A stretch of DNA of 64,000 nt from Clostridia bacterium (lineage in GTDB: Bacteria > Bacillota > Clostridia > Oscillospirales > Acutalibacteraceae), in assembly GCA_017439585.1 (NCBI GenBank), contig JAFSIV010000004.1:186001-250000 (forward strand). Direction: 5' to 3'. Positions within the stretch are counted from its first letter, which is position 1, and each line of letters starts with the position of its first letter. Shown piece by piece: positions 36,558-64,000 of this stretch. The position numbers and the translations under genes were made by a program. The notes under the pieces are model-generated. The model ran no database searches and was not told the DNA's origin. It saw nothing but the letters and a program-made list of their open reading frames with translations.

Positions 36558-37391
36558 TTAACCTTTATGATGTTTATTACGGTATTCTTTTGGAGAAATA
36601 CCGTTGAATTTTTTAAAGGCGGTAGAGAAATGATGAGAGTCGGTAAAGGCAAGTTTGGTTGCAATTTCCTGAATTTGCATATTCGTATTGATTATCATTT
36701 CGTTTGCAAGTTTTATTTTTTGCTTTAAAAAGTAATCGTACGGGGTTTGTTTATAAGTTTCTCTGAATATGTGGATTAAGTGTGCACGAGATATGTGAAA
36801 GTGACGAGCAACATCATTAAGTCTTAACTGTGATTCTACATTCTTATCCAAAAATTCAGATATTGATTCGGCGAGAGTGCTGTTAACTATCGTTTCCTCC
36901 TTATCCGTAATAAGACTTATTAATGAAAGAAGATTGTGCGCAAAGGAAGAATCTTTTTTATTAGGCAGTGAAATTGTAGATAAAATGTTATCAAAAATGC
37001 CTTCTACATCAATATTTTTTATAAATACTTCTTCTTTATTTATATCGTATAAATCGAGCAATGAGGAAACGAGCGTTCCGCTGACATTAAACCACTTTTT
37101 CTTAAAAGGATTAAGGTTATCTGCATAGTAAAAGCAGTTTATACGGCGTGGCAAAAGATAAAAATCCCCTGCTTTTACCGTATAATGTTTGTTTTGATGG
37201 GATATGTGTCCCTTACCGCTACAGACATATTCAAATACATATGCGTCAGCCGCTTTGTATATTCTGTAACGATTATCGGGAAAGGTTATTCCTGCTAAAG
37301 AAACATTTAAAAGAGATGTCTGATATGAGCTATGAATGGAATACAATTTTTCTTTACCAATACAGTCTGTACCGAATTCTTGAAACAACAT
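36558..37391 (-). CDS. AraC-family transcriptional regulator
   Basis: A sugar-type regulator: N-terminal cupin sensor domain (about 1-150, with AGDFYLLPRRINCFYYAD) and a C-terminal pair of helix-turn-helix motifs (about 175-277), including LNDVARHFHISRAHLIHIF and the signature IATKLAFTDSHHFSTAFKKF. The start at 37391 follows GGAGGTTT on the minus strand; a longer frame to 37430 is rejected. It is divergent from the glycan locus and most likely activates it in response to a sugar. Confidence 0.93.
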   Translation of the reverse strand: MLFQEFGTDCIGKEKLYSIHSSYQTSLLNVSLAGITFPDNRYRIYKAADAYVFEYVCSGKGHISHQNKHYTVKAGDFYLLPRRINCFYYADNLNPFKKKWFNVSGTLVSSLLDLYDINKEEVFIKNIDVEGIFDNILSTISLPNKKDSSFAHNLLSLISLITDKEETIVNSTLAESISEFLDKNVESQLRLNDVARHFHISRAHLIHIFRETYKQTPYDYFLKQKIKLANEMIINTNMQIQEIATKLAFTDSHHFSTAFKKFNGISPKEYRNKHHKG

Positions 37392-37420
37392 ATTAAACCT
37401 CCAAAAAAATTTACATAATA

Positions 37421-37449
37421 ATAGTACCACTTAGTTTGAAAAAAATCAA
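37421..37449 (-). promoter_or_regulatory. Candidate promoter of the AraC gene
   Basis: On the minus strand TTGATT (37444-37449) and TACTAT (37421-37426) are spaced 17 bases. Its -35 box overlaps one copy of the AAATCAAT direct repeat, which fits autoregulation. Confidence 0.55.
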
Positions 37450-37468
37450 TTATTTAGTTGAAATCAAT
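37443..37468. promoter_or_regulatory. AAATCAAT direct repeats, candidate AraC operator
   Basis: AAATCAAT occurs at 37443-37450 and 37461-37468, an 18-base period, between the two divergent promoters. A second possible pair, GCACAAAAC and GAGCAAAAC, lies at about 37499 and 37533 next to the plus-strand promoter. AraC-family proteins bind such direct repeats; the assignment is inference. Confidence 0.4.
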
Positions 37469-37530
37469 AATATTATGAAAAAAACAAACGAATATTTTGC
37501 ACAAAACTAATAACATTTTGAATTTTATTC

Positions 37531-37558: not shown

Positions 37559-37592
37559 GTAAAATTAGGAGATATTATGGAGGTAAGATATT

Positions 37593-39500
37593 GTGAAGAT
37601 GAGAGCTCCGGCAGTACCACTGATTAACTGCAATCCCAATTTTAATATATGGTCTAATGAGAACAGATTAAATGAGGGAATTACAAGACATTGGAGTGGA
37701 GTGCCACATCCAATGACGGGTGTATTTTCTGTAAATGGTAAAGACTATCTATTTATGGGCAATACATCTATTACTAAAATGGAACAAATTACTGTAGATA
37801 TTGATTTCTTTACTACTGAATATATTTTTAACTGTGATGAAGCAAAGCTTGCTGTAAGATTTACAACACCGCTTTTATTGAACCGGCTTAATGTTATGGC
37901 AAGACCTATTACATATATTGAATTTGAAGTTTTAGAAAATCGTGGCGGATATGATTGCTCTGTCAAATTTACCATAGATGATTGTATATGTCTGCAAAAA
38001 AAAGGTCAGGCAGAGGTTGTGTTTGAAGAATTTGAATCTCAGGAAATTGTCGGCGGTTTTATGGAGAACAAGGGTGCTAAACCTCTTCAGTATCACGGCG
38101 ACCGCTCCAGTATTGACTGGGGAAGAATTTGCCTTGCAAGCGCTGAATCAAATGCGCACATTTACTCTGAGAAGGACTGCGAAGGCAGAACTATGACATT
38201 AGAGTTTTCGGTGAACGATAAAGCGCTTATTGTAGCAGCTTATGATGAACTTTATGCTATTGAGTATTATCAGGAGTATATTGATTGCTATTGGAAAAAA
38301 GAAGCAGATACGATTGATGAGCTAATTAAAATTGCAATTAACGAGTATGATGATGTTATTAAACTTTGTAATGATTTTAAGGCTCCTCTTGAAGCTAAAG
38401 CGTTCGAGCTCGGTGGAGAAAAATATGTTGAGTTGTTAAAACTTGCATATCGTCAGACAATTGCGGCACATACACTTTGCGAAGATAAAAACGGCAACAT
38501 TTTATTTATTTCAAGAGAGTGCGGAAGCGGTGCGCATGCTGCGACAGTCGATGTTACATATCCGTCTATGCCACTTTTCTTACTTTATAACCCTGAACTT
38601 GTTGTGGGAATGATAAGACCGATATTTAGATACGCACTTCAAAAGCCGTGGAAAGGTCTTTATACATTTGCTCCGCACGATGCGGGATTTTTTCCAATAC
38701 TCAACGGACAAACATATCCGTTAGGTGACGGACTTAATGAAAGCACACAGATGCCGGTTGAGGAATGCGGAAATATGCTGTTGATTTGCGCAGCTATAGC
38801 TGTAGCTAAAGGTGGATTTGAATTCGGAGACGCCGAGTGGGAGCTACTCAAAAATTGGCGTGATTATCTTATAGAATATGGAGCAGACCCAGGTGAACAG
38901 CTTTGCACCGATGACTTTGCAGGACATTTAGCACATAACTGTAATCTTTCTGTAAAAGCAATAATGGGTATAGCCGCTTATGCGATACTTTGTAATATGC
39001 GTGGTAACTTTAAGGATGCTGAAACTTATATAGATATTGCACGTTCTATGGCAAAAGATTGGATTAAACGGGCAGATAATGGCGATGGTACTTACCGACT
39101 TGTGTTTGATAAAGAAGATACATTCAGTATGAAATATAACGCCATTTGGGATATGCTTTTTGGCACTAATATATTCCCGAAAGATACTTTCAAGAAAGAA
39201 TTAAAATCCTATGTAGAAAAGCGTATTAACAGATACGGTATGCCGCTTGATAACCGTAATGACTATACAAAGTCTGATTGGATACTTTGGGTGGCTACTA
39301 TGATGGAAAGTAAAGAGGATTTTGAAAAGATGATAGTTCCTCTTTGGAGAGCTTATGACGAAACAAGATTTCGTTGGGCAATGTGTGATTTATATTTCAC
39401 ATCAACTGCGGACCATAAGGAGTTTGAGAATAGGACTGTTCAAGGTGGATTATTTATGAAGCTTTTGGCAGACTCCGGAAAAATGAAATATGACTTTTAA
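37593..39500 (+). CDS. DUF4965/glutaminase-A-like protein, cytoplasmic
   Basis: A 635-residue protein matching the DUF5127-DUF4965-DUF1793 (glutaminase A-like) family, which has a beta-sandwich followed by an (alpha/alpha)6-type barrel. Recognisable segments are PLINCNPNFNIWS and TRHWSGVPHPMTG at the start, MPVEECGNMLLICAA, QLCTDDFAGHLAHN and MPLDNRNDYTKSDW. Many relatives are secreted; this one has no signal peptide, so it should act inside the cell on an imported molecule. The start GTG has GGAGGT upstream. It leads the operon that the AraC protein probably controls. The true activity is unknown: a glycosidase or amidase on a sugar conjugate is possible. Confidence 0.75.
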   Translation: MKMRAPAVPLINCNPNFNIWSNENRLNEGITRHWSGVPHPMTGVFSVNGKDYLFMGNTSITKMEQITVDIDFFTTEYIFNCDEAKLAVRFTTPLLLNRLNVMARPITYIEFEVLENRGGYDCSVKFTIDDCICLQKKGQAEVVFEEFESQEIVGGFMENKGAKPLQYHGDRSSIDWGRICLASAESNAHIYSEKDCEGRTMTLEFSVNDKALIVAAYDELYAIEYYQEYIDCYWKKEADTIDELIKIAINEYDDVIKLCNDFKAPLEAKAFELGGEKYVELLKLAYRQTIAAHTLCEDKNGNILFISRECGSGAHAATVDVTYPSMPLFLLYNPELVVGMIRPIFRYALQKPWKGLYTFAPHDAGFFPILNGQTYPLGDGLNESTQMPVEECGNMLLICAAIAVAKGGFEFGDAEWELLKNWRDYLIEYGADPGEQLCTDDFAGHLAHNCNLSVKAIMGIAAYAILCNMRGNFKDAETYIDIARSMAKDWIKRADNGDGTYRLVFDKEDTFSMKYNAIWDMLFGTNIFPKDTFKKELKSYVEKRINRYGMPLDNRNDYTKSDWILWVATMMESKEDFEKMIVPLWRAYDETRFRWAMCDLYFTSTADHKEFENRTVQGGLFMKLLADSGKMKYDF

Positions 39501-39534
39501 ACCAAACCAATTTATTAAGGAAAGGAGTTTGAAA

Positions 39535-42279
39535 ATGAAAAAATCAGTTTTTTCGTTTTTGTTAGTTTTTCTGTTAATACTTCCATCGGTTTTTGTTCCT
39601 GCTTCTGCAGAAGATGCAAGAGGTAACGAAGATTTAAGTACAATTACATTAACTGTAAATGATGCTTGTGTTTTTGAAGGTGTTGAGAAAACTGATGACG
39701 GAATAAAATTCACAGAGCAAGGTCGTGCTGTTTGGAAATTTGGTGTATCAAATGGTGGTGAATATACAGTTGATATTTACTATAAACAGGATACACAAAA
39801 GTATAGCAAAATAGTGTTTTCAATGCTTGTTGACGGAAATAAACCATTTACAGGTGCGGATAATTTAAAACTTGACCATTTGTGGCAGTATAAGTCAGAC
39901 AAAATTTATGATGTGCAAGGCAATGAAATAAGAAACGACCAAATAGCGTTAGAGAACATTTGCAAAAAACGACTTACAGTTAAGCAGGATTTTGAGGATA
40001 AAGATGTAGTTCTTAAATTAGATGCCGGTCAGCATGCAATAGAATTTTTAGCTATAGACGATGCTTTTACTGTCGAAAAGATTGTACTTTCTAAAAAAAC
40101 AGAGGTTTTATCTTATTCGGATTATCTTAAAGCGAACAGTACAAATGTTGATTCCAAAGAAAAGAAAGCAATAAAGCTTCAGGCAGAAGAAGCTGATGCA
40201 AAATCAGATAAGAGCATTCTTATTCAAAATGATAGAAGCTCGGTAAATGTAGAGCCTTACCATGCAATTGATATAAGATATAACTGTCTGGGTGGCGACA
40301 GTTGGTCTATGGTTGGCGATTTTATTGAGTGGGAAATAGATGTAAAGCACGCAGGTTTTTATAATCTTGATATTCGCTACAAGCAAAATCTTAAAACAAA
40401 CGATATATCTCATAGAACCCTTTATATAGATGGTGAACTTCCCTTTAAAGAAGCGAAGAATATTGAGTTTAAGTATGATTCTGGTTGGAATGTTTTAAGA
40501 ATAGGTGAAGATAAAAAGGAAGCCTTTAAATTCTATTTAATTAAGGGCAAACATACTTTAAGATTTACTGCCGATTCCGGTGATAGAACAGATTTGCTTA
40601 TTGAAGCCAATGATATTCTTAAAAGATTGAACGAAGACTATCTTTCAATACTTATGATTACCGGTGCTGATGCCGATGTTTACCGTGATTATAAATTTGA
40701 TTTAGCAATACCTGAAACTATTGCTGATATGAAGAAATTATCCAAGGAACTCAAGGATCTTGAAAAGAAATGCGAAAAATATAACGGCGGTGGAGCTAGT
40801 ACAGCGGTATTTAGCTTGCTTTACGATACTCTTGATGCAATGACAGAGGATACTGATAAGCTTGCAGAAAATATTAGCAACCTTGATAGTAATATTACTT
40901 CTTTAAGCACATGGATATTTGATGCACAAGCACAACCTGTGTTAATGGATTACATAACTTTATCACCTTTAAATACAGAAAAACCAAAGGCAGAGGGTAA
41001 TTTCTTCGAAATGCTTTGGCACCACTTGAAACAGTATATTTTATCATTTTCTTATGATTATGCAAATGTAGGAAATACTAAAGAGAAAACAAAGGAATCC
41101 ATTACAGTTTGGACATTTGTATCTCAAGAGCAGACAAATATTATTCAGCGACTGTCAACAAACTCTTTTGTTTCTGAAAAAAATATTCCTGTTAATGTAC
41201 AGCTTATAAATCAGACAGCTTTACTTCCTGCAATTCTTGCAGATATTGGACCCGATGTAGCGTTAGGCTTGCCGCAGAGCACACCTGTGAACTATGCGCT
41301 TCGTAATGCAATTATAGATTTGAATCAATTTAGTGATGTAGAAGAAGTGAAGAAGAACTTTGCAGACAGTGCGATAGTACCTTTCACTTTGAATGATGGT
41401 CTTTACGCTCTTCCCGAAACGCAGTCCTTTAATGTACTTTTCTATCGTAAAGACGTATTAGAGGAAATGAATATTCCCTTGTCTAAACTTGATACATGGG
41501 ATAGTCTTCTAACAGAGGTTATGCCTGAACTACAACTTAATCATTTGACCTTTGGTATTCCGCAGGGAATACAGTCATATCTAATGTTCCTTCATCAAAA
41601 GGATGGAAAACTTTATTCTGATGACCACTTAAGCACACTGCTTGATGAGGCAAAGGGTGTATCTGCTTTTAAAGATTATGTGAGTCTTTACAAAGAATAT
41701 AAGCTACCGTTATCATTTAGTTTTATCAACCGTTTCAGAACCGGACAAATGCCTATCGGTATTGCTGATTTTACAACATTTAATACTTTGGCAGTATCTG
41801 CTCCTGAAATCGATGGACTTTGGGGTATGTTACCGATTCCCGGTACAGTTGATGAAAATGGTAATGTCAATCGTAAAAGCTCAGCTATTGTAACCGGTTG
41901 CGCTATTTTAAAAGAAGAAAATAAGAAGGAAGCTTGGGAATTTATTAAATGGTGGACCAGCGAAGAAACACAGTTCTCGTTCTCGCAAGAGCTTGAAATT
42001 TTATTAGGTTCTGCTGCAAGAAATGCTACTGCAAATGTAAATGCCTTTAATAAGCTTTCTTGGAACAAAGAAATGCTTAAGGCTATAAATACTCAAAGAA
42101 ACAGTACAGTTGGTTTTGAGGAAATTGCCGGTGGCTATTTCACAGATAGGTATTTCGGATTTGCCTTTGCCGATGTTATTTATGAGAACAAGGACATAAT
42201 CGAAACACTTGGTTCCGCAGCTAAAAATATAAATACTGAGATAGAAATTAAAACAGAAGAATTATTGTTGAACAAGTAG
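39535..42279 (+). CDS. Secreted solute-binding protein fused to two carbohydrate-binding-like domains
   Basis: Signal peptide ends ASA (residues 23-25), a signal-peptidase-I site, with no lipobox Cys. Two beta-sandwich domains resembling CBM35/jelly-roll folds follow (about 33-185 and 215-365), each with a G-[EF]-Y-[TN]-[VL]-D-I-[YR]-Y-K-Q strand. A helical linker (about 375-515) leads to an extracellular solute-binding family-1 domain (about 517-890) with DVALGLPQSTPVNYALRN and the WEFIKWWTSEETQ end. It has 914 residues, about twice normal. The two permease genes directly downstream are its likely partners. How it stays near the cell without a lipid anchor is unclear. The ribosome site is AAAGGAG. 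Confidence 0.85.
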   Translation: MKKSVFSFLLVFLLILPSVFVPASAEDARGNEDLSTITLTVNDACVFEGVEKTDDGIKFTEQGRAVWKFGVSNGGEYTVDIYYKQDTQKYSKIVFSMLVDGNKPFTGADNLKLDHLWQYKSDKIYDVQGNEIRNDQIALENICKKRLTVKQDFEDKDVVLKLDAGQHAIEFLAIDDAFTVEKIVLSKKTEVLSYSDYLKANSTNVDSKEKKAIKLQAEEADAKSDKSILIQNDRSSVNVEPYHAIDIRYNCLGGDSWSMVGDFIEWEIDVKHAGFYNLDIRYKQNLKTNDISHRTLYIDGELPFKEAKNIEFKYDSGWNVLRIGEDKKEAFKFYLIKGKHTLRFTADSGDRTDLLIEANDILKRLNEDYLSILMITGADADVYRDYKFDLAIPETIADMKKLSKELKDLEKKCEKYNGGGASTAVFSLLYDTLDAMTEDTDKLAENISNLDSNITSLSTWIFDAQAQPVLMDYITLSPLNTEKPKAEGNFFEMLWHHLKQYILSFSYDYANVGNTKEKTKESITVWTFVSQEQTNIIQRLSTNSFVSEKNIPVNVQLINQTALLPAILADIGPDVALGLPQSTPVNYALRNAIIDLNQFSDVEEVKKNFADSAIVPFTLNDGLYALPETQSFNVLFYRKDVLEEMNIPLSKLDTWDSLLTEVMPELQLNHLTFGIPQGIQSYLMFLHQKDGKLYSDDHLSTLLDEAKGVSAFKDYVSLYKEYKLPLSFSFINRFRTGQMPIGIADFTTFNTLAVSAPEIDGLWGMLPIPGTVDENGNVNRKSSAIVTGCAILKEENKKEAWEFIKWWTSEETQFSFSQELEILLGSAARNATANVNAFNKLSWNKEMLKAINTQRNSTVGFEEIAGGYFTDRYFGFAFADVIYENKDIIETLGSAAKNINTEIEIKTEELLLNK

Positions 42280-42292
42280 AGGAGGAAGTAAA

Positions 42293-43189
42293 ATGAGCAA
42301 ATTAAAGAAAAAATCTATTTTTAAATATGCTACAAATTATGCGTTTGTTTTGCCATATCTTACAATATTCTTTTTGTTTACAGTATTGCCTGTTTTGATT
42401 TCGATATTTTTAAGTTTTACATATTATAATGTAATCGAAACACCCGTTTTTAATGGACTTGCAAACTATCAAAGACTATTTTTCAGTGATGATTTGTTTA
42501 CAAAAGCACTTTCTAATACCATGGTATTAGCACTTATTATCGGACCTGGCGGGTATGTACTTTCATTTGGATTTGCATGGATACTAAATGAGTTCAAGCC
42601 TAAAATTCGTACTTTTCTTACATTCTTTTTATATGCGCCATCTTTAAGTGGCGGTGCGTTTGCGATTTGGGCAATTATTTATAGTGGCGACCGTTATGGT
42701 TGGCTTAACAGTATTCTATTGAGTTTAAATATTATTAGTGAACCTATTCAGTGGCTTACAGATACGAACTATATGCTACCGTGTGCGGCTGTTTCAATAT
42801 TGTGGATGAGCCTTGGTACTAGCTTCTTATCATTTATTGCTGGATTCCAAACAGTTGATGGAAGTCTTTATGAAGCAGCAAGTGTCGATGGAATAACAAA
42901 TCGTTGGCAAGAACTTTGGTATATAACAATCCCGTCAATGCTTCCGCAAATGATGTTTGGTGCTGTTATGAGTATTACGGCTTCCTTTGGTGTAGGCCCG
43001 CAGATTACCGCTCTTTTCGGTAATCCAAGTACCAACTATGAGCTTTATACTGTTGTGCATCAGTTAGAAGATTATGGTAGTACAAGATTTGAGATGGGCT
43101 ATGCATCAGCTATTGCAACTGTTTTATTTGTAATAATGTTTGTTTCTAATGAAGTTGTTAAAAAATTACTTGCAAAGGTGGGACATTGA
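42293..43189 (+). CDS. Sugar ABC transporter permease (MalF/UgpA type)
   Basis: Six-helix membrane permease of the carbohydrate uptake CUT1 class. The 298 residues contain the EAA loop LYEAASVDGITNRWQELWY, which contacts the ATPase. It begins with a cytoplasmic basic tail, then ALPYLTIFFLFTVLPVLISI-like helix 1. It lies 13 bases after the binding protein and overlaps the next permease, so the two form a pair. No ATPase gene is present in the locus; a shared MsmK-type ATPase elsewhere is probable. Confidence 0.93.
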   Translation: MSKLKKKSIFKYATNYAFVLPYLTIFFLFTVLPVLISIFLSFTYYNVIETPVFNGLANYQRLFFSDDLFTKALSNTMVLALIIGPGGYVLSFGFAWILNEFKPKIRTFLTFFLYAPSLSGGAFAIWAIIYSGDRYGWLNSILLSLNIISEPIQWLTDTNYMLPCAAVSILWMSLGTSFLSFIAGFQTVDGSLYEAASVDGITNRWQELWYITIPSMLPQMMFGAVMSITASFGVGPQITALFGNPSTNYELYTVVHQLEDYGSTRFEMGYASAIATVLFVIMFVSNEVVKKLLAKVGH

Positions 43190-44055
43190 TGAAATTAAAA
43201 AGTCTTGTGAATCAAAGAAAAAATCGCTCCCTTTCAGGTACAATTGCATTAATGGTATTTATTCTAGCGGTTGCGGCATTTATGGTATTTCCGCTAATAC
43301 TCATATTGGGTAATGCTTTTAAGCCACTAAGTGAGTTGTGGCTCTTTCCACCGAGGCTTTTACCTATAAGAGCGACTACAGATAACTTTACAGATTTGTT
43401 TAGTTTGGCTTTTGGTAGTACAGTGCCACTTACAAGGTATTTATCAAACACCATAGTTATTACTGTCGCAGGAACGGCAGGGCATATATTCCTTTCATCA
43501 ATGTGTGCTTTCCAGTTTGCAAAGCGCAAATTCCCAGGTAGTAAAGTGCTTTTCACAATTATTGTATTGTCGCTTATGTTTAATGCAACAGTTACGAGCA
43601 TACCAAACTATCTTGTAATGGCAAAATTGGGTTTAATAGATACATTATGGGCTATTATTATTCCTACTATGGGTACTCCGCTTGGTCTTTACCTTATGAA
43701 AAACTTTATGGAAACATCTATACCTGATGCAATTATAGAGGCAGCAACTGTGGATGGAGCCAATGAATGGGTGATTTATAAGCGAATAGTAATGCCTAAT
43801 ACCAAGCCTGCTTGGATGACTTTAATACTTTTGCAGGTACAAACTCTTTGGGCAACTGGAAATAACGGTTTTATATTTAGCGAAGAAAAGAAAACCTTAG
43901 CTTATGCACTTTCGCAGATTGGTGCAGCAGGCCTAGAGCGTGCGGGTATAGCCGCAGCAGTTTCGGTAATAATGCTTATCGTGCCATTTTCAATATTTAT
44001 ATTTACTCAGTCAAACGTTATGCAAACTATGTCAACTTCTGGTATGAAGGATTAG
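43189..44055 (+). CDS. Sugar ABC transporter permease (MalG/UgpE type)
   Basis: Second CUT1 permease, six helices, 288 residues. The EAA loop is IIEAATVDGANEWVIYKRIVMP. The ATG at 43189 overlaps the previous stop (TGATG); a TTG one codon earlier is possible. It pairs with the permease upstream to form the translocation pore for the binding protein at 39535. The next gene follows after 23 bases. Confidence 0.93.
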   Translation: MKLKSLVNQRKNRSLSGTIALMVFILAVAAFMVFPLILILGNAFKPLSELWLFPPRLLPIRATTDNFTDLFSLAFGSTVPLTRYLSNTIVITVAGTAGHIFLSSMCAFQFAKRKFPGSKVLFTIIVLSLMFNATVTSIPNYLVMAKLGLIDTLWAIIIPTMGTPLGLYLMKNFMETSIPDAIIEAATVDGANEWVIYKRIVMPNTKPAWMTLILLQVQTLWATGNNGFIFSEEKKTLAYALSQIGAAGLERAGIAAAVSVIMLIVPFSIFIFTQSNVMQTMSTSGMKD

Positions 44056-44078
44056 TACAATTGAAAATGGAGGTTAAT

Positions 44079-46148: not shown

Positions 46149-46159
46149 GAGGGCTAAAT

Positions 46160-49607: not shown

Positions 49608-49617
49608 GAGGGCAAAA

Positions 49618-50597: not shown

Positions 50598-50724
50598 TTT
50601 CAACAATTTCTATTTTTCGGAGGTGAAAGCAGATATTACCTAAAAGTCTAATTTAGTACGGCAATAGGTAAAAAAAGAAAAAATGTTCCAAAGGCAAAAA
50701 ATTTATTTAGAAAGGAAAATTCTA

Positions 50725-56000: not shown

Positions 56001-57761
56001 GGTATTTCTCTCCACGCTACTGACGAGGGAAGCTATGACTACTATATAAAAGCGTCAAATTACCCCGACAGTAAATCGCCGAACAGAAACAATAACAAAG
56101 ATTATAAGATAACGGGTCTTTATTCAAAGGAGGGTTTTTCACTTTGGGTAGATGACATAATTGTTATGGATAACGTAGCGCTTACCGTGCCGAGTGAAAA
56201 TTTTGAAGTTACAGGTATGGATTTCGGTCTTTTCGGTGTAAGAACAAAGGGTAAAATGGAGGATATTCAGCTTTGGTGCAATAAGGCTGATGTGGAATAT
56301 CCCGAGGCAGAGCCAAAATTTAATTCTTCAATTCACACAAACCTTACACCTATGTTAAAAGCTGGTCTTGCTGCAGGTATGACCGCAACCTACGATTCTA
56401 AAAACGGTACATACGATATCGTTGCAAAGCAACCTTATAAGCAATTAGAATTTTCAAATCTTGCAATGCGCTATACCGGCACTCTTTATACAAGGGCAGT
56501 ATTTAAAGCGGGTATTGAAACTAACATTGCTTGGGCGGGTCCGGAGCTTTTAGTTGCAAATGTAAGTAAAAACGGTGTAAATGGTTATATCGGCATCCGT
56601 CTTAATGAGGACGGCGGTGTTTCAACCCACGCAAGCGATAATGCATCGTTTGATGGTAACTGGGTGAACACCTTCTATCCCGACAGTTATTCAGGCAAAA
56701 GAAACGACAATATAGATTATGAGGTTGTTGTTCGCTCAACTCTTAATGATCTATCTGTTTGGGTAAACGATATGCTTATAATTGACCGTATGCCCTTAAA
56801 GTATGATGATATAACAGTAACATCACCATTTGCGGCTATTTATACCGCAAACTGTACAGCTACTATTCAGGATTATCAGGTGTGGTGCGAAAATAAGGAT
56901 GTTTTGAAAACCACTGTAAATCCAACCGTTACAAGCTCTCTTTATATTGGAAGCGGTGTACCTGCCAAGCCGGAAGGTAATATAAATTATGCTGACAGAC
57001 TTACCGATTTAACATTTATAACCGCAGGAACAAATTATGGCTTCTATTGGAATGAAGAAACTAATACCTTCTGGAACGACAGAGGTGATACCTATGCCAG
57101 AATGGAGTTTGGTAATTTTACCGATATGTCATCATCTGATACCTTTGCTATGAAGTTTAAGTATACCGTTAAGGATTATAAACCGAACGGCGCCGACCAA
57201 GGTTCAATGGGTCTGCGGTTACTGTTCAGAGGCTTTACAGGCTACAGTGTTGCAGGTGTTCACGCACGTGGAATTCAGTTTGCAGTACCCGGCGCTAATG
57301 AGTACGCAATGTGGTCTGACAACGCCTACCTTGGTGGTAATTACATTGATTACGGCTTTGAAGTGGGTAAGACCTACAATGTTGAAATTCTTTCGGGTCC
57401 TACCCAATTAGCACTTTGGATAGATGGTAAGCAGATTTTCTACTATTATGATCTTGCCGACTGTGAACCCTACTTCTATTTCGAGGTTTACCGTTCACTT
57501 CTTGAAATTGCAGATTTAGAAATATATAATATTGAACCTGAAACATATTCCAATGATGAAGAAAAAATGGCGGTAATGGTATCCAAAGAAGTTTCAAAAA
57601 ATAAGGAATACAAGCTTAACGCAATTTTAGAGCAAAAGAAAAACAATCTTGTTGCAGAAATCGTTAGTATATCTTCAGTGGGTGTTATATTTGCTGCTCT
57701 TGTATTGTTTACGGTATTCCTATTAAAGAATAATAAAAAGAAAGGCAGAGAAACTAAATGA
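53076..57761 (+). CDS. Giant membrane-anchored surface protein with seven lectin-like repeats
   Basis: 1561 residues: signal peptide (1-30), seven concanavalin/LamG-like units of about 205-213 residues starting near 35, 248, 453, 666, 875, 1080 and 1285, and a C-terminal transmembrane helix (about 1530-1552) followed by a basic NNKKKGRETK tail. Units 1, 2, 4, 5 and 6 start P-x-[YF]-N and end [WY]-C; most have W-[VI]-[ND]-[GD] and a YPDS motif. Units 3 and 7 are divergent. It has no LPXTG signal, so it is membrane-anchored with repeats outside. It probably binds a glycan; the family is not characterised to my knowledge. It overlaps the next gene by four bases. Confidence 0.8.
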   Translation: MKTTFKKWLAVLVAVVLLATPLTVIQLVSAADFVPTYNADKNIDLTETLTVQKSGSYVNYSAPAVWTNGYTVQSTSSEMTSERVAFSNVHIANDGTAYFSATVKSGLICGGVNAQWAGPAIYLGKVVSETKGEGYVTAMLTKEHQMDLRLKDTYNNDLLYLGNHGNYPDSNSAVRGDIDYTITAAVSKTSMSIWVNGKKWVDDYKFESNGLTYDTFEFGIGFVCCQGTVSGVKAWCAKDEYKQPDMTPVYNSEKHTDINSLLQMEVVGSTPTAKKTDGLFGVIGNDMTTCDYVNYGDLSQIIDGTLYYNAIVKEGIAQDNADNNGGAILRIAKAKFGINTGTLGVLFSKSLGIRLVLLDDNNKILAYITDLDYSGTSAKTRPNTDLNITAAIDENAISLYINGVTLLIEHSLEDLGVTMIGHSFGLGFINASGEIANARVYCNTDSYIEPVNISNKGSFVKTEISGGTPSETPVTAADSYVADSDSNDKSVFVTSDISKLINEGATVLTKTVFATRTDYPTDNGVQLVRLGRVNYEGTHYFADLELTKADGIKIRLISFDNTQTSTVIASADYIKADGTKTKVRFDLKDDQTILTAVNKSGIAAYMNGYMAIKAVFDTDFAFAAPISGAGVRNMKTYQTSFIKRYNTGVKAFSVYCFKAEKFSNAPKYNADTDTNLNTYAETETKGGNIGLIYQTKNGGSFKAVSGSTASYSDTAILKNYNIKADGTLYFAATLKGGLEAGGANAAWSGPVLRLANIEKDGVQGALAIRFTSTQQIELYMDGDNTKYFDTKFNYPDTQSANRGNKDYKIVAEVNSEHISFWINGETLIDKYMLTDNGITFKSLCTEIKFVACKGTVDDIFLWCKNEDATAIKMPPVFNPDTDYMLSDTMRSGSTSDFTTSKDANGFDVNIKSEQIAVNFGEKYIKENGTFAFSLTHKAGAESSIAWGGLAIRLGDVVKDGKKGYLELRFTDMASGGISLHATDEGSYDYYIKASNYPDSKSPNRNNNKDYKITGLYSKEGFSLWVDDIIVMDNVALTVPSENFEVTGMDFGLFGVRTKGKMEDIQLWCNKADVEYPEAEPKFNSSIHTNLTPMLKAGLAAGMTATYDSKNGTYDIVAKQPYKQLEFSNLAMRYTGTLYTRAVFKAGIETNIAWAGPELLVANVSKNGVNGYIGIRLNEDGGVSTHASDNASFDGNWVNTFYPDSYSGKRNDNIDYEVVVRSTLNDLSVWVNDMLIIDRMPLKYDDITVTSPFAAIYTANCTATIQDYQVWCENKDVLKTTVNPTVTSSLYIGSGVPAKPEGNINYADRLTDLTFITAGTNYGFYWNEETNTFWNDRGDTYARMEFGNFTDMSSSDTFAMKFKYTVKDYKPNGADQGSMGLRLLFRGFTGYSVAGVHARGIQFAVPGANEYAMWSDNAYLGGNYIDYGFEVGKTYNVEILSGPTQLALWIDGKQIFYYYDLADCEPYFYFEVYRSLLEIADLEIYNIEPETYSNDEEKMAVMVSKEVSKNKEYKLNAILEQKKNNLVAEIVSISSVGVIFAALVLFTVFLLKNNKKKGRETK

Positions 57762-58576
57762 AAATTAAAGCGTTAAAAGGTTTTGTATGCCTTCTTACGA
57801 TTGTTTTAATGCTGTGCGGTAGCTTTGCTGCCGCTGCAGCCCCTGCTTATAGCAGCAACACAAAGGATTACGCAACAAAAATCGTTGTAACCCGTGATGA
57901 TGAGCCGTATTCGGTTAAAGAAAAGGCGGTTAATATAACCGAAAGAGATTATATAGGAACACATACATATAAGCTTAATACCGAGCTTGCTCCTAACGCT
58001 AATTTTTATATTAGCGGTAAAATCAAGTTTACAAGAACTAATGCTATAAATGCTGCCCCTATATTCGGACTTAGGAATGGTGTAGTTGCTGCATTTAACG
58101 GCACGCAAATAAAAATCGGCAGTAACGGCGATGCATTCGATGATGCTGCTGTAGTTGACTTTGATTTTAAAGTTGGTAAGGAATACAATGTAGTTATCAA
58201 AAGTACGATGACAAGAGTTTCTATGTGGATAGATGGTAAGCGAGTAATAAACAATTATGCTTTGCCCTACACAAGCTGTGGAAAAACTCCTTTAGTAACG
58301 CTTAAATTCACAAAAAGCGCAGGATATTTTAAAAATGTTCATATATGGTCGTATGACGAGGTTGAAGAGCAGGGAACAACAAGCTTTTCTGATGATGTAA
58401 CCCCCGTAGATACATCAAAATCCGAAGCCTTAACAGAGGAAAAGGTATTACAGGTAAATTCACCGCAGGGTGAGAATAATATCTGGATTCCGATAGTTTG
58501 CGGTTGTGTTGCGGCAGTGGTTGTTACTCTTGTTATAGTTTATATTGTGTTAAAGCAAAGGAGGGCTTTAAAATGA
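57758..58576 (+). CDS. Small membrane-anchored single-repeat surface protein
   Basis: 272 residues: signal peptide (1-28), one lectin-like unit (about 40-200) with the WIDGKRVINNYALP strand like those of its giant neighbour, a Ser/Thr/Pro-rich linker, and a C-terminal transmembrane helix (about 243-266). Its topology copies the 1561-residue protein upstream with one unit only. ATGA overlaps exist on both sides (57758 and 58573), so the three genes are translationally coupled and likely work as one assembly at the membrane. Confidence 0.75.
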   Translation: MKIKALKGFVCLLTIVLMLCGSFAAAAAPAYSSNTKDYATKIVVTRDDEPYSVKEKAVNITERDYIGTHTYKLNTELAPNANFYISGKIKFTRTNAINAAPIFGLRNGVVAAFNGTQIKIGSNGDAFDDAAVVDFDFKVGKEYNVVIKSTMTRVSMWIDGKRVINNYALPYTSCGKTPLVTLKFTKSAGYFKNVHIWSYDEVEEQGTTSFSDDVTPVDTSKSEALTEEKVLQVNSPQGENNIWIPIVCGCVAAVVVTLVIVYIVLKQRRALK

Positions 58577-61500
58577 AAAATAAGGTATTAAAAATAACAG
58601 CCCTTGTATTGGCTTTTGTATTGGTAATAGCCTCAGGCAGTATGCTTGCAATTGCTATTAAAAACCGCTTGGAGGAAATTAAACTTGAAGAGGCTTTGAT
58701 TGCAGAGCGTTCGGTTGATAAAATTAAGGATGTATTCCACGACCAGGGCTATATTTATATGAGTCCTACAGAGCCTTCGGTTAAGGATACTGTTACAATA
58801 AGACTGAGCACCCTTAAATATAATGTCACAAGGGCGCAGTTGGTATATACAAGTGATGAGGGACAGAACTTTAAAAAAATAGATATGAAGTATGACGGTG
58901 TTTCTGAAGGTGAATATTATGACCTTTGGAAAGCAGAAATTCCTCCACAGGGTGAAAAGTACCGTTATTTCTTCATTATCGGAAATGAATCCAAGGACGA
59001 GGAGCAGTTTTATTCTGTTAAAGGCGTTACAGGCTATCAGCCGGGTACCGACCTTATGTTTACCGTAGACCCCGGATTTACAACTCCTGATTGGTCAAAG
59101 GGTACATATTGGTATGCTATGAACATAGGTAGCTTCTATAATGGCGACAGCACAAATGATGCTTTCGGTTATTTAGATGACCTGTCCCCCAATCAGGATG
59201 TAAGAGGTTCTAATTACCGTTCCTTCTACGGCGGTGACCTTAAGGGAGCTATGGAGAAAATAGATTATATTAAGTCACTCGGTGTAAAGGCGGTATACTT
59301 AAATCCCCTTTGGCCGTCCATTAACACTACAGGCTATGGAACAACCGATTATTATTCAACAAATCCGCAGTTTGGAACAGAGCAGGATTTAATGGATTTT
59401 GTAGCCCTATGTCACAAAAACGGCTTAAAGGTTATGCTTGACGCAGTGGCTTCCTATAATACCGATATGGGTAACTGGTACAATTCTTATGAAATTTTCC
59501 CGCTTGTGGGCGCTTCACAAAGTGAAAATAGTGCCTTCAAGGATATTTTCAAATTCTATGAATATCCGGATGTTATTCAAAAGGTGTTCTCCTCCTTTAC
59601 TACGGATTTCTCATCTGAAATCACCAAAAAGCTGTACTACACTACAAAGGACAGTCTTTTAACCAGATATCTTGATAACGAAACCTATAATATTGATGGT
59701 TGGCGCTTTGATGCCCAGGACTTTTTATGGGGCTCTGAGGGACTTACTTTTCAGGATATAGGTAGGGATATGAAAAAATATCTTAAATCCTATGGCGATG
59801 ATATACTTTATCTTGGTGAAATTTATACCGATGATATAGCAGAAGAAGGTATATGGGAAAGTCTGTGGAACAATAATCAGTGCACCAATTTTAGAAATCT
59901 AATGAGTGGCAAAATTACAGATTTCAGAGATACAAGTATGATAAAGGTTCATACACATCCCCGTCCGTTGGCGGAGTCAATGTATACCTACATTGACGGT
60001 CACGACTGGAGCAGAACATCAAATATAGCATCAAAACAGTATCAGATTGATACAGGTATGATAGCCCTTATGACATATATCGGCTCTCCCGCTGTTTGGT
60101 ACGGAGATGATACGGGTAGTGAAACTATTAACGGCGCTATGGATGCTTTTAATTGGGATGAATCCACCTGGAAATATGACAACCATTACTTGCATTTAGC
60201 ATTGGCCCAATTAAGAAATGATTACTCTTCTACTATGAAGCACGGTGTTATTAAGTGGGGAAAGGTAGAAGATACCAAACAATTTGGTGTTTATGCTCGT
60301 TTTGATGAAAATGCTACCTGCGTAGTCGCATTAAATAATAAGGGTACTACCGAATCACGTGCAATTGATGTAACTGTTTTTGATATTAAAGATGGTACTA
60401 TTCTCACCGACTATTTAACAGGTGTTGAATATGAGGTAACAAACGGCGTTATTGATGCCGACATCATACCCGGAGGGACTATATTTGTTACAGGCGACAA
60501 GGTATCCGATTACCGTAACGAATATAAAGTTTACTCCGACAGTAAGACAAAGAACAGTGTGAAATATCAGGTTTCTAGTGAAACACGCACAGCTATCACA
60601 GTAGAAGGTAAAGCAAGTATAGATGGTAAAAAGGATAGCGGTACATACACACTTACTCCCGTGTTTGATATGTTCGAAATTTCTGCTAAGGTTAATATAG
60701 ATAAAAAGAGCAGTGCGGCTATAACAGTTACCGACAGTGAAAATATTGGCGGAGAGCTTCGCTATTCTGCATTGTCAGACGGTAAAAACCTTAAGATATA
60801 TGCAAGAACTGAAAAGAACGCAGAAGCAAAGCTTATTTGTGAAGTGAAGGTTGAAAACGGTTCTGTTGTAAGTATTGTGCGCAATCAAAATAATGAGTTT
60901 TCAGTTTTGGTTGAGAAAAACGGAAAAACGGAGCTTATAAAAAAATCTACTATTTATATCCCTATGAAGCAAAAGGCTTATGCAGGTTTTGTTGGCGTTA
61001 AGGGAAGCACAATGTTCTCTCAAATATCTATTGAGAAAACCGAAATGTCTGAAAGCGCAGAAGCCTTTGAAACAAAAAATACAAACGTAGCCTTTAGCTT
61101 GGAGGGTAAGGCAGATATCAATAACGGCGTTTTATCTGTCACAAAGAAAAATAATGCAGAATTTTCCGCAATTATGCCACTTGATGACTTCACAGTTAAA
61201 ACTGTTATTAAATCAGGAGCAGAAGTTTCAGAAAAAGGCTATGCAGGTCTTTATGTAGGAAACCTTGACACAGATGCAGTATTTGCAGGTGTAGTCGGCA
61301 AAAAACTTGTATTTGCGAGAATTATAAACGGACAAATAGCAGTTTATGACGATACGAATGTTAAATCTGATATCACGGTTCAGTTACAGAAAACCGGTAA
61401 TTTATTCAGTGTTGTTTATAAGGTTGGCAATGGTGCTTGGAAACAACTCGGTACTAAACTTTTATCTGCATATTCAGCTGGTAAAGTTGGTATAGCCGCA

Positions 61501-63147
61501 AAAAATGCAAAGGCAAGTTTTGACTACATCACCTTTGGCGATGCTTTAAACGGTGGTGGACAGTTAAATACACCGGTTACAATTAAGGATTATCTTACCG
61601 ATGATAATTATTTAATAAATAATACTATCAGAGGTTATCGCAGTTGGAAAATTGACGGCGATAAGAGCAATTGGGATTATGCTGTAGGCGGTATAGCACA
61701 AAAATCAACAACAGGAAAGCATACTATGTATGAAAATAATGTACTTACTGATTTCAGAGCAGAAGGTACTATTGTGTTGGGCAAGGGCAAAGGCTTTGCA
61801 GGTATGTTTATCCGTGGAAACAAAAAGAACTTCTCAGAGAAAAACGGTTATGTAATTAAACTTAATGACAGCGGAGAACTTTCACTTTGCAAAAACAATA
61901 CTGTAATAGATAGCGTGAAGATTGACAACATACCCAAAACAGGTCTTCGTGTTGTAGTTGAAGCGGTAGATGATAAGATAATTGTATTCGCAGGTAATCC
62001 GTTAAAATTAGTCTTTAATGTAAGCAATGTAACCGAAAAAGAGGGATATTTCGGCTATTATACAAGCAATAAGGCAGTAACCTTTACAAACTATGCTTTA
62101 TATAGGCTTGATGTAAATTATGCTGAAAGAGGGGACTCTTATTTAGGTAGTCAGTGGTCTTACAATGCAGGTTATATTTCTGTGACAGCAGGTGAAACCG
62201 AGTATGTATCACTTTCTCGCAAGGGTAACGGTTTTACAGATGCTGCGGCATTTGTTCAAATTCATGCCGAGGAAAATGTAATGGATACCGAAGAAAAGCA
62301 GGTCGACAGTTATGCGGGTCTGGCTTTTGCGGGTGATGAAGGTATAACAATCGACGAAAAGGGCATTTTCTTCGGTGTAAGCACCGATGGCAAGATTGCT
62401 GTTTTTGAAAACGGCGAGAAGAAAGCCGAAGCCAATATCAAAAACTTTAACAAAAAAGTTAATAACCTTCTTGTCACCGTAAAGGATGGCGTTTACAAAG
62501 CCTATGTAAACAATACTTCCGTTGTTGCTATAACCTACGATTCTGCTAATTTAAATGGTGGTACAATTTCTCTTGCAGCAAATAATGCAAATGTTAAATT
62601 TTCACATTTCTATACAGAAGATTTAAGTGATGTTGATGGCATAAATTCTTCGGCCATAAAATTCAAAGCGGCTCGCTATATGGGAAGTGCCAAATTTGTT
62701 GAAAATGTTAAGGGTACAACCTACTATATTGCCAAAGTAAATCATCCGGCCGGTAAGACAACCATTACAAATGTACCAACCGGTAAATATAAGGATTTTA
62801 CAGCACAGTTTAGTATGGATTTAGACAATGTTAAAAGCGGAAGCGCCGGTATAACTTTTGCGGGTGGTTATACAGTTATGGTTTCTACTTCGGGCAGCGT
62901 AAGTATTTCTGCACCGCCGGAATGTACTGCAAAAACAATTTCAATAATAAGTGAAATTGTCGGCTTCTTCAGTACTGACGATATTCCTGTACTAAAACTT
63001 AAGCTTATAAAATCTGGCGATAATGTCAAGCTTTATATTGGCGGTAATTTAGCGCTTGAAGCAGAAATTGAATCTGCTGAGGGTGAAGTCGGTCTTTATT
63101 CATCAAATGCCAAGACCGAGTTTACAGCATTCACAATTACTCCGTAA
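58573..63147 (+). CDS. Membrane-anchored GH13 alpha-glucan-active enzyme with repeat tail
   Basis: 1524 residues. An N-terminal hydrophobic helix (about 9-30), probably uncleaved, anchors it outside. An N-terminal beta domain like that of neopullulanases (about 75-155) precedes a GH13 barrel (about 170-600). The nucleophile Asp380 is in GWRFDA, the acid/base Glu416 in YLGEIY, and His477-Asp478 in the fourth conserved region (GHDWS), where the usual Asn is Gly. A beta-rich C-domain and several lectin-like units fill the remaining 850 residues. Substrate is likely an alpha-glucan. The start ATG 58573 overlaps the preceding stop and has AAAGGAGGG upstream. Confidence 0.85.
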   Translation: MKNKVLKITALVLAFVLVIASGSMLAIAIKNRLEEIKLEEALIAERSVDKIKDVFHDQGYIYMSPTEPSVKDTVTIRLSTLKYNVTRAQLVYTSDEGQNFKKIDMKYDGVSEGEYYDLWKAEIPPQGEKYRYFFIIGNESKDEEQFYSVKGVTGYQPGTDLMFTVDPGFTTPDWSKGTYWYAMNIGSFYNGDSTNDAFGYLDDLSPNQDVRGSNYRSFYGGDLKGAMEKIDYIKSLGVKAVYLNPLWPSINTTGYGTTDYYSTNPQFGTEQDLMDFVALCHKNGLKVMLDAVASYNTDMGNWYNSYEIFPLVGASQSENSAFKDIFKFYEYPDVIQKVFSSFTTDFSSEITKKLYYTTKDSLLTRYLDNETYNIDGWRFDAQDFLWGSEGLTFQDIGRDMKKYLKSYGDDILYLGEIYTDDIAEEGIWESLWNNNQCTNFRNLMSGKITDFRDTSMIKVHTHPRPLAESMYTYIDGHDWSRTSNIASKQYQIDTGMIALMTYIGSPAVWYGDDTGSETINGAMDAFNWDESTWKYDNHYLHLALAQLRNDYSSTMKHGVIKWGKVEDTKQFGVYARFDENATCVVALNNKGTTESRAIDVTVFDIKDGTILTDYLTGVEYEVTNGVIDADIIPGGTIFVTGDKVSDYRNEYKVYSDSKTKNSVKYQVSSETRTAITVEGKASIDGKKDSGTYTLTPVFDMFEISAKVNIDKKSSAAITVTDSENIGGELRYSALSDGKNLKIYARTEKNAEAKLICEVKVENGSVVSIVRNQNNEFSVLVEKNGKTELIKKSTIYIPMKQKAYAGFVGVKGSTMFSQISIEKTEMSESAEAFETKNTNVAFSLEGKADINNGVLSVTKKNNAEFSAIMPLDDFTVKTVIKSGAEVSEKGYAGLYVGNLDTDAVFAGVVGKKLVFARIINGQIAVYDDTNVKSDITVQLQKTGNLFSVVYKVGNGAWKQLGTKLLSAYSAGKVGIAAKNAKASFDYITFGDALNGGGQLNTPVTIKDYLTDDNYLINNTIRGYRSWKIDGDKSNWDYAVGGIAQKSTTGKHTMYENNVLTDFRAEGTIVLGKGKGFAGMFIRGNKKNFSEKNGYVIKLNDSGELSLCKNNTVIDSVKIDNIPKTGLRVVVEAVDDKIIVFAGNPLKLVFNVSNVTEKEGYFGYYTSNKAVTFTNYALYRLDVNYAERGDSYLGSQWSYNAGYISVTAGETEYVSLSRKGNGFTDAAAFVQIHAEENVMDTEEKQVDSYAGLAFAGDEGITIDEKGIFFGVSTDGKIAVFENGEKKAEANIKNFNKKVNNLLVTVKDGVYKAYVNNTSVVAITYDSANLNGGTISLAANNANVKFSHFYTEDLSDVDGINSSAIKFKAARYMGSAKFVENVKGTTYYIAKVNHPAGKTTITNVPTGKYKDFTAQFSMDLDNVKSGSAGITFAGGYTVMVSTSGSVSISAPPECTAKTISIISEIVGFFSTDDIPVLKLKLIKSGDNVKLYIGGNLALEAEIESAEGEVGLYSSNAKTEFTAFTITP

Positions 63148-63159
63148 AGATTAGCATTT

Positions 63160-63197
63160 GTTGCCGTTTTGTAAAAAAAGACTTTCAAAACGGCAAC
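63160..63197 (+). promoter_or_regulatory. Hairpin between GH13 gene and solute-binding protein gene
   Basis: A perfect 12-bp stem GTTGCCGTTTTG with CAAAACGGCAAC (63160-63171 with 63186-63197) has a 14-base A-rich loop and no T run after it. It more likely stabilises or marks a processed mRNA end than terminates. Confidence 0.55.
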
Positions 63198-63249
63198 ACT
63201 TGATGACTTTACGTGTAATAAAAAATTTAAGCAAAGAGAGGACAAAAAG

Positions 63250-64000
63250 ATGAAACTCAAAAGAATTTTTGCTTTGTTAATGGCAGTATGTATGGTTTTA
63301 ACATTCTCTGCATGTAGCAAGGAAAAAGAAACTGGCAAGAAAGAAGTAGGCGGTTTTGAAGTGGTAGACCCCTATACAAATGACGAGGTTGTTGACCTTG
63401 ATGGGTACGAATTTACAATAGCTTCAGGATGGCTCGAAAATGATATGAAAATTAGCGAAGCCGGTCGCATCTTCAAAAAGCGTATTGAAGAGGTTGAAAA
63501 GGCATACAACTGTAAAATCAGCATTGTAGATGGTGGCGATATTACTACCCAGATACTTGCAGGTGAAAAGGTTGCTGACTGGATTGACACTTATACTTCT
63601 AGCGCTTGGAGTTCTATTGCAGGAGAATATTTCAGACCCTATGACACCATTGAGGGTATTGATGTTAAAGATAGTCGTTGGAATAAAGGCTATGTTGGTC
63701 TTACCCAGTATGAAGGACTTTCTTATGGTGTTAACTTTATGAAACCTGCTGAAGTACGTGCAGGTGTTTTCTTTAACAAAACCCTTATAAAGAAATATGG
63801 TATAAAAGATAATCTATATGATCTTGTACGCGATAAGAAGTGGAATTTTGATAAACTCCGTGAAATCGCAAAAGCTTGCACAAAGGATACCAACGGCGAC
63901 GGTAAGACTGATGTTTACGGCATACTCTTCTTCGATGAATACAATGCGGGTCAATCCTTTATCAACGCAAACGGTTCTACTTTGGCTAGTGTTGAGGGCG
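63250..64000 (+). CDS. Sugar ABC transporter solute-binding lipoprotein, 5' part
   Basis: The gene is cut by the window end; 250 codons are visible. A lipoprotein signal MKLKRIFALL... with lipobox FSAC (Cys22) is followed by an extracellular solute-binding family-1 domain. Segments AGEKVADWIDTYT and a CTKDTNGDGKTDVYGI loop are typical of CUT1 sugar-binding proteins. The start ATG has an AAAGAGAGG-type site upstream. It may serve the second permease pair at 48696-50511, or a pair beyond the edge. No ATPase is seen. Confidence 0.88.
   Translation, partial: MKLKRIFALLMAVCMVLTFSACSKEKETGKKEVGGFEVVDPYTNDEVVDLDGYEFTIASGWLENDMKISEAGRIFKKRIEEVEKAYNCKISIVDGGDITTQILAGEKVADWIDTYTSSAWSSIAGEYFRPYDTIEGIDVKDSRWNKGYVGLTQYEGLSYGVNFMKPAEVRAGVFFNKTLIKKYGIKDNLYDLVRDKKWNFDKLREIAKACTKDTNGDGKTDVYGILFFDEYNAGQSFINANGSTLASVEG

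Follow-up and report, generated by a model that had tools for sequence, protein, structure and literature searches.

A candidate gram-positive polysaccharide utilisation locus around a conserved import cassette of two modules

Gram-positive polysaccharide utilisation loci (gpPULs), such as those of Roseburia/Eubacterium and the mixed-linkage glucan (MLG) locus of Blautia producta, share a regulator, a surface glycan-degrading enzyme and ABC import genes, and have no SusC/SusD; the Blautia locus combines glycoside hydrolases (GHs) with one solute-binding protein (SBP) and one permease entry (PMC10318527, in the part available). The MsmX-dependent CUT1 importers of Bacillus subtilis, AraNPQ, YesOPQ and YtcQP-YteP, consist of an SBP and two binding-protein-dependent (BPD) permeases, with no ATPase gene in the locus and a shared UgpC/MsmX-type ATPase encoded elsewhere (PMC5730181, likewise in part). 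How surface capture is coupled to import in cells without an outer membrane is, in our judgement, less understood than the SusCD systems. Here we analyse a stretch of 64,000 nucleotides (the window; positions 186001-250000 of contig C22) from a Clostridia bacterium whose genome, called its own genome below, comprises 1.49 Mb in 23 contigs and is 87% complete. With respect to the published definition of a gpPUL (PMC10318527, in the part available), the locus has a regulator (AraC), polysaccharide-degrading enzymes as judged by family (three GH13 proteins) and carbohydrate transport (two SBPs and four BPD permeases).

An initial annotation had described these genes as a single, mostly uncharacterised system for capturing glycans. 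The observation itself is confirmed by our analysis, and the interpretation is partly supported. We propose that the locus is probably a gpPUL built on a conserved two-module import cassette, each copy of which has been fitted to another glycan. Our literature search, which covered titles and abstracts and had subscription journals and CAZy outside its scope, recognised no description of an importer with NHL-Yip1 and DUF5696 and found no paper naming DUF5696; the cassette, which is widely conserved, is apparently undescribed.

Conservation and modular structure of the cassette

The locus consists of two modules and is not one indivisible system. Core A, which is near-constant, comprises a protein with NHL and Yip1 domains (NHL-Yip1), a DUF5696 protein and the permeases P3 and P4, usually together with the binding protein SBP2. 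Module B, a separable second importer and a frequent partner of core A, comprises SBP1, fused to a region resembling a carbohydrate-binding module (CBM), and the permeases P1 and P2. We compared these genes with two partly overlapping sets of loci. The named-locus set holds the best 80 of more than 566 DUF5696 relatives in named genomes (Paenibacillus, Cohnella, Bacillus, Lederbergia, Halalkalibacter, and Lachnospiraceae and other Clostridia metagenome-assembled genomes), and 73 of the 80 are well flanked. The phylum-sample set derives from 299 genomes sampled across the phylum, among which the own genome is counted; it holds all 44 DUF5696 loci over the cut-off from 25 genomes other than the own genome, with at most four candidates scored per genome, so that further DUF5696 loci may exist.

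Across the phylum sample, DUF5696 exceeds the Pfam cut-off of PF18952 in 26 of 299 genomes, the own genome included, and NHL-Yip1 exceeds our threshold of 100 bits in 27. Both are present in 26 genomes, and none of the 299 has DUF5696 without NHL-Yip1 (Fisher p ~1e-36, relatedness ignored). In the one odd genome, G243, which has NHL-Yip1 without a DUF5696 match, the best match scores 122 bits (G243:C103:7907-8506) and covers profile positions 11-207 only; this genome has one further match. In 38 of 39 testable phylum-sample loci the gene immediately upstream of DUF5696 is Yip1, the remaining locus (L160) having it at a distance of 303 nt, and P3 lies directly downstream of DUF5696 in all 41 testable loci. 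An SBP2-like gene is found on the same strand in 36 of the 44.

The named loci show the same arrangement. All nine parts (CBM, SBP, P1, P2, NHL, YIP, DUF5696, P3 and P4) are held by 71 of the 73 well-flanked loci, and 70 of these 71 have them in identical order with no other labelled gene. This count was obtained with looser scores and unfiltered open reading frames (ORFs); stricter scores with overlap-filtered ORFs give 63 of 73. NHL and Yip1 form one gene in 21 named loci and two genes in 53 (stricter labels), the two standing next to each other in many relatives. A gene of the SBP2 cluster, whose representative is an SBP_bac_1 protein, occurs in 74 of the 80 named loci and is directly upstream in 57. 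A lipobox-like motif was found in 31 of the 80 DUF5696 proteins. A lack of synteny in other genomes, which the initial annotation had named as a sign against a single system, is thus not what we found.

A reading of the locus as one system was dropped once the phylum sample showed module B to be missing or moved. Among the 28 phylum-sample loci with full flanks, module B is present in 19 and absent from 9, and in L152, L159 and L160 it follows P4 and thereby module A. The two exceptions in the named set, L046 and L105, likewise keep NHL-Yip1, DUF5696, P3 and P4 and lack module B. Therefore, we describe the cassette as core A with module B as a frequent partner. The genes of the initial annotation's single system do belong to a conserved system, but one of two separable modules, and the set of enzymes, dockerin and repeat proteins around them changes from copy to copy. 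The same separability, the swapped order in the three loci named above, and the position of P4 away from P3 in one copy of the own genome would suit an ordinary gpPUL in which two unrelated ABC importers stand side by side by chance, with NHL-Yip1 and DUF5696 as accidental passengers. For module A, however, the linkage data tell against such an arrangement: Yip1 accompanies DUF5696 in all 39 testable loci (at 303 nt in one of them), P3 is next to it in 41 of 41, and every one of the 26 DUF5696 genomes has NHL-Yip1. We regard chance assembly as very improbable.

In the reading that we favour, module A would be an ABC importer formed by P3-P4 and the lipoprotein SBP2, with two constant partners, the membrane-bound beta-propeller protein NHL-TPR-Yip1 and the surface-located, GH129-like DUF5696 protein. 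Module B would provide another ABC importer, P1-P2, served by SBP1 with its CBM35-like domains. The anchored repeat proteins and the CBM-fused SBP1 would hold the polymer at the surface, where the anchored GH13 enzyme would cut alpha-glucan. SBP1 would then deliver to P1-P2 and SBP2 to P3-P4, the delivered products differing in size or branching, and a single UgpC/MsmX-type ATPase would power both importers. DUF5696 and NHL-Yip1 would stand at the entrance of P3-P4 as a station for docking, for checking or sorting, or for a last trimming, and the GtaA-like protein and other cytoplasmic enzymes would finish the products. Other copies would have been re-fitted to different glycans through their own neighbours and diverged surface parts. 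A bolder version, which we consider rather doubtful, unites core A and SBP2, and in many species module B as well, in a single physical assembly at the cell surface. Its propeller and (pseudo)hydrolase would serve as a platform from which long branched oligosaccharides are threaded or sorted into the two neighbouring importers, both driven by the same ATPase. If true, this assembly would play the part of SusCD in bacteria that have no outer membrane, having been duplicated and re-equipped glycan by glycan.

DUF5696 and its conserved acids

A profile of 34 DUF5696 sequences (A9) matches the structures 8rzg, 8rzk and 5opq (DagB) at E-values of 2.6e-9 to 3.4e-9, and those of NagBb, a GH129 alpha-N-acetylgalactosaminidase (5wzn/5wzq), at about 3e-5. 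The matches cover a short piece of the N-terminal part and the beginning of the barrel, and the alignment misses the C-terminal (catalytic) half of the barrel; for the DagB-type matches, no single stretch passes 0.001 alone. When the profile is restricted to the barrel, the NagBb match keeps an E-value of 7e-6, and 5opq is unlisted at E<=10. None of the 34 profile members matches Pfam GH129 (PF11308) at E<=1. A search of 199 genomes for the GH129 family gave no match, controls included, and so says nothing on absence. Taken together, the matches suggest that DUF5696 is distantly GH129-like.

In an alignment of 123 distinct DUF5696 sequences, four acids are near-invariant (window numbering): D304 in 118 of 123, D328 in 119 of 123, D645 in 111 of 123 and E740 in 120 of 122. 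All four are kept by 102 of the 119 sequences from elsewhere; of the 17 that do not keep them, one fails only through a gap at a contig end. Most family members may thus be enzymes or may share a conserved binding site. The copies of the own genome depart from this pattern, the window copy by D328N, L008 by D304S, L009 by E740G, and L010 by both D304I and E740S; the DUF5696 protein of a relative from the same taxonomic order, L162, is without two of the four acids. Loss of conserved acids may therefore be a trait of this lineage, which appears to have a relaxed site. A plain reading that DUF5696 has lost catalysis, drawn from the own-genome copies, was softened when the 123 sequences showed near-invariant acids. 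The initial annotation had suggested that DUF5696 perhaps trims glycan; as stated for this locus, that suggestion does not find support, since the window copy lacks one of the four family-conserved acids.

These data bear on the possibility that DUF5696 is an active glycosidase of a new GH129-related family that trims captured glycan outside P3-P4, with NHL-Yip1 a mere scaffold. Its profile likeness to GH129 and GH129-like enzymes and the retention of the four acids in most outside sequences speak for such an enzyme, but all four own-genome copies are without at least one of these acids, and the DagB-type match (8rzg) falls to an E-value of 0.004 with the barrel-only profile. In addition, the NagBb sequence HLDGW, which we take to be a calcium site and which is altered in the second of the listed chains, aligns to non-acid consensus residues, and one specificity is hard to reconcile with xylan, beta-glucan, alpha-glucan and mannan neighbours. 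We consider an active trimming enzyme possible, if somewhat short of probable. In DagB, Asp202, Asp486, Glu517 and Glu531 are needed for activity, and the enzyme has been proposed to stand outside GH129 (PMC5698469, in the part available). Judging from spacing only, we would guess that Asp202 of DagB has its counterpart in D304/D328, and Asp486 in D645.

Sister copies, glycan neighbours and regulators

The own genome contains four copies of the cassette, on contigs C22 (the window), C19, C4 and C16, and with module B these account for 16 of the 28 BPD permease matches of this small genome, two of the 16 lying below the cut-off. Identity between copies is 42-62% for P1/P2 (means 49/48%), 28-46% for P3/P4 (means 35/32%) and 19-41% for the CBM part, NHL, Yip1 and DUF5696 (means 30% for CBM, 30% for NHL and 24% for DUF5696). 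In every part compared in all four copies, which left out P4 of C16, the nearest pairs are the same, window with C4 and C19 with C16, as would be expected had whole cassettes been duplicated as units. The C16 copy has P4 next to SBP2 beyond large adhesin-like genes (L117:4259-6636, L010), with P4 ending about 8 kb upstream of SBP1; this adjacency supports the pairing of SBP2 with P4.

Each copy has neighbours of its own. The window copy adjoins GH13; C19 has a GH16 protein over the cut-off and a dockerin-bearing one whose GH16 match narrowly misses it; C4 has GH65 and a HAD phosphatase; and C16 has large proteins with pectate-lyase-like adhesive and CBM4_9 domains, with no recognised hydrolase among the neighbour proteins scanned. 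The initial annotation's choice of alpha-glucan thus fits this copy and does not extend to the others; because the locus encodes three GH13 proteins, we infer alpha-glucan as a likely substrate of the window copy only.

Neither importer of the window has an ATPase gene beside it. The only OB_MalK match in the own genome belongs to an ATPase of the UgpC type (492 bits with NCBIfam UgpC, against a cut-off of 432), and no cassette-like permease lies within about 5 kb of that gene. EAA-type loops are the sites by which such permeases contact their ATPase. A relaxed EAA pattern, which replaced a strict one, is found in 78 of 78 P1, 77 of 78 P2, 76 of 76 P3 and 78 of 78 P4 sequences of the named loci. 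As for an outer-membrane route, we found no match in the own genome to the TonB-receptor Plug domain (PF07715; controls positive in 3 of 14) or to Omp85 (PF01103; controls positive in 7 of 14), and no SusD turned up among the scanned locus proteins, although no search was aimed at SusD families. The description of a locus resembling a polysaccharide utilisation locus but without SusC/D therefore holds within this assembly.

The neighbours of cassettes elsewhere were surveyed through 89 same-strand downstream genes (the first two of each run) from 53 of the 80 named loci. Among the 25 of 54 families shown, Pfam matches include SBP_bac_1 (17), GH10 (10), GH43 (9), GH30_2 (4), GH26 (3) and GH38 (3), and ten singly scanned neighbour proteins include GH29, GH95 and GH43 with a xylosidase C-domain as well as, among regulators, LacI and response regulators with an AraC helix-turn-helix (HTH) domain. 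When all flanks are counted, a cluster whose representative was confirmed as GH10 has 25 genes in 21 of the 80 named loci. Ten host genomes, about 70 Mb in all, contain 42 GH10 matches, and at that density only about 0.4 would be expected in an equal flank length; this background, for GH10 alone, comes from 11 loci in the 10 genomes, mostly chosen for nearby GH10. Many of the named loci thus seem to be aimed at xylan, in keeping with a cassette that can go with more than one glycan.

Regulators are also common beside the cassette, an AraC-type cluster occurring in 43 and a LacI-type cluster in 21 of the 80 named loci. Four of five scanned members of the AraC-type cluster combine a response-regulator receiver with an AraC HTH domain, and histidine kinases occur nearby. 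Response regulators with an AraC HTH stand upstream of Paenibacillus cassettes at L047:583-1359, L057:439-1230, L059:614-1471 and L089:448-1203, and these cassettes may be under two-component control. The frequency of such regulators, together with the membrane location of NHL-Yip1, whose propeller presumably lies outside, would be compatible with NHL-Yip1 and DUF5696 acting as a surface sensor that uses P3-P4 as a checkpoint and signals the glycan to the adjacent regulator. However, the regulators are of several kinds (AraC, response regulator, LacI, GntR, kinase) while the core is constant, and the core retains two permeases. Such a sensing role is improbable in our estimation.

Several observations weigh against the reading that we favour, a two-module import cassette re-fitted from glycan to glycan. 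The pattern of a conserved channel and a variable surface is only half true, because P3/P4 diverge more between copies than P1/P2. P4 can leave the core, as in the C16 copy, the sole core split seen. The pairing of binding proteins with permeases is read from gene order, and most named loci have SBP2 upstream of SBP1 and not next to P3-P4. The strict EAA pattern matched P1 in only 11 of 78 named loci and window P4 not at all, and with an assembly of this completeness other ATPases may be missing from it. The 80 named loci are the top slice of the DUF5696 relatives and come mostly from Paenibacillaceae. Finally, three-gene importers of Paenibacillus JDR-2 are induced on beta-glucan, starch and other sugars, and the available part of that report does not mention the cassette (PMC4765114).

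The window locus and described systems

Table 1. Genes and other features of the locus (positions in the window)
Feature	Position	Strand	Evidence and remarks
AraC-family regulator	36558..37430	-	Pfam HTH_18 2.5e-19, AraC_binding 2.1e-13; divergent from remaining locus
GtaA six-hairpin/DUF4964/DUF5127 protein (GtaA_6_Hairpin)	37593..39500	+	Pfam PF16335 1.1e-115
SBP1, module B	39490..42279	+	SBP_bac_8 1.8e-19; probable start ATG 39535
Permease P1, module B	42293..43189	+	BPD_transp_1 3.8e-10, over cut-off
Permease P2, module B	43186..44055	+	BPD_transp_1 2.6e-10, over cut-off
NHL-Yip1 (NHL beta-propeller, TPR, Yip1 membrane domain), module A	44061..46148	+	Pfam
DUF5696 lipoprotein, module A	46160..48694	+	Pfam PF18952 3.1e-105; lipobox LSAC by eye
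Permease P3, module A	48696..49607	+	BPD_transp_1 1.1e-6, over cut-off
Permease P4, module A	49588..50511	+	BPD_transp_1 8.5e-13, over cut-off
Dockerin protein, secreted; three repeat domains and weak C-terminal dockerin	50683..52713	+	Dockerin_1 19.2 bits, cut-off 22.9
15-bp hairpin between dockerin and repeat genes	52767..52803		T tract on minus strand only
Large repeat protein	53076..57761	+	7 repeat matches, last partial; N-terminal hydrophobic segment, C-terminal membrane anchor
Small repeat protein	57758..58576	+	single partial repeat match; C-terminal membrane anchor
GH13 neopullulanase/alpha-amylase-like enzyme	58498..63147	+	Alpha-amylase 9e-30; N-terminal membrane anchor; probable start ATG 58573
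SBP2, lipoprotein solute-binding protein, 471 aa	63250..64000, past window end	+	lipobox by eye

Pfam scans of the window ORFs recovered every gene listed in the initial annotation (Table 1), although not all in one direction, since the AraC gene is divergent. The small gaps and overlaps noted there are real, ranging from -20 to +34 nt between the GtaA-type gene and P4 and amounting, in order, to 171, 362, -4, -4 and 102 nt thereafter; the hairpin is a possible transcript boundary. The GtaA-type protein is probably cytoplasmic, neither a signal peptide nor a hydrophobic segment being seen; PF16335 is, we assume, the renamed DUF4965, and phmmer found no relative of the protein in the PDB at E<=0.001. 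SBP1 consists of N-terminal CBM35-like domains and a helical region fused to the solute-binding domain. No CBM exceeds any Pfam cut-off (CBM_35 scores 17.1 bits against 28), but a profile of the N-terminal part (window and 24 loci) matches a stretch of the cycloisomaltooligosaccharide glucanotransferase 5x7g at 1.5e-6, presumably that enzyme's CBM35. SBP1 is without a lipobox, as are nearly all of its homologues (a lipobox-like motif in only 2 of 74).

P1 of the window shares 44-62% identity with its counterparts in the three sister cassettes and 23-25% with the P3 set. In NHL-Yip1, NHL and Yip1 exceed their Pfam cut-offs (Yip1 37 bits, cut-off 28.6) and TPR_2 does not, and its profile (A1) matches NHL and TPR structures. 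The top PDB relative of the window GH13 is 1ji1 (4.8e-52). SBP2 could be completed beyond the window (L006:751-2166), and the whole protein matches SBP_bac_1 at 5.8e-14. The predicted anchoring of the two repeat proteins and the GH13 enzyme is upheld by hydrophobic segments, C-terminal in the former and N-terminal in the latter; no LPXTG-like motif was found in the last 60 residues of these proteins. A 154-position repeat profile finds, besides the matches in the repeat proteins, three in the dockerin protein and one clear match in a GH13 protein beyond the window. The repeats called lectin-like are thus present, and their kinship to ConA-like lectin domains is suggested by weak or partial Pfam matches (DUF6250 3.1e-5, below the cut-off, in the large repeat protein; 3keto-disac_hyd). 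The dockerin call likewise corresponds to a weak C-terminal match below the Pfam cut-off. A dockerin of a sister locus exceeds it (28.7 bits, L008:16150), so that dockerin-bearing proteins occur in two cassettes of the own genome, one of them below the cut-off. With three cohesin matches over the cut-off (L114, L115, L116; G000:C1 and C13), this genome may encode a small scaffoldin system.

Beyond the window the run continues with the end of SBP2, a GH78-like gene, two more GH13 genes (1073 and 1622 aa, the latter with the repeat; L006:4625-12729), a sugar-isomerase-like gene, a GFO/IDH dehydrogenase, a GDSL esterase, GH29 and L-fucose isomerase. Since a GH29 fucosidase-like gene and an L-fucose isomerase gene come after the GH13 genes (L006:18004-19239, L007:1141-2946), the locus or its surroundings may encode the use of fucose; these two and the GH78-like gene may serve a different substrate. 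On the left flank (31716-36486) lie a tRNA-Pro, a large serine recombinase (31881-33608), a ParB-like protein (33805-34632) and a weak NikA-like match below the cut-off (36013-36486). Together they resemble a mobile element, or what is left of one, whose end lies immediately in front of the AraC gene.

In comparison with described systems, the locus shares with gpPULs its regulator, surface glycan-degrading enzyme and ABC import genes and the lack of SusC/SusD. Compared with the Blautia locus, it has two joined importers, the constant partners NHL-Yip1 and DUF5696, and putative surface capture by repeat proteins and a CBM-fused SBP. A xanthan locus also has two binding proteins and two permeases, and its main text contains no match for NHL, YIP1 or DUF (PMC12827396, in the part available). 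The importers have the same gene layout as the MsmX-dependent CUT1 importers, and by analogy we assume that they are energised by an MsmX-type ATPase. The available part of the B. subtilis work mentions no NHL-Yip1 or DUF5696 partner (PMC5730181), and SBP1 of the window is non-lipidated and CBM-fused. DUF5696 has weak but significant whole-profile similarity to GH129 NagBb and GH129-like DagB (PMC5698469, PMC8106489, both in part), but the catalytic residues of these enzymes are unmatched in the alignment, and DUF5696 is tied to an ABC importer.

A near-constant four-gene core, found in 26 of 299 phylum genomes, thus stands beside genes for different glycans. DUF5696, NHL-Yip1 and the CBM-SBP fusion become one testable system for which culturable Paenibacillus models exist, and the cassette gives a clear starting point for asking how complex plant sugars may enter bacteria that have no outer membrane. 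The window locus is not a member of the SusC/SusD polysaccharide utilisation loci of Bacteroidota, from which it differs in having neither a TonB plug nor an Omp85 match, yet it is like them in outline, in that binding, cutting and import would be gathered at one place and several copies in one genome would serve different glycans.

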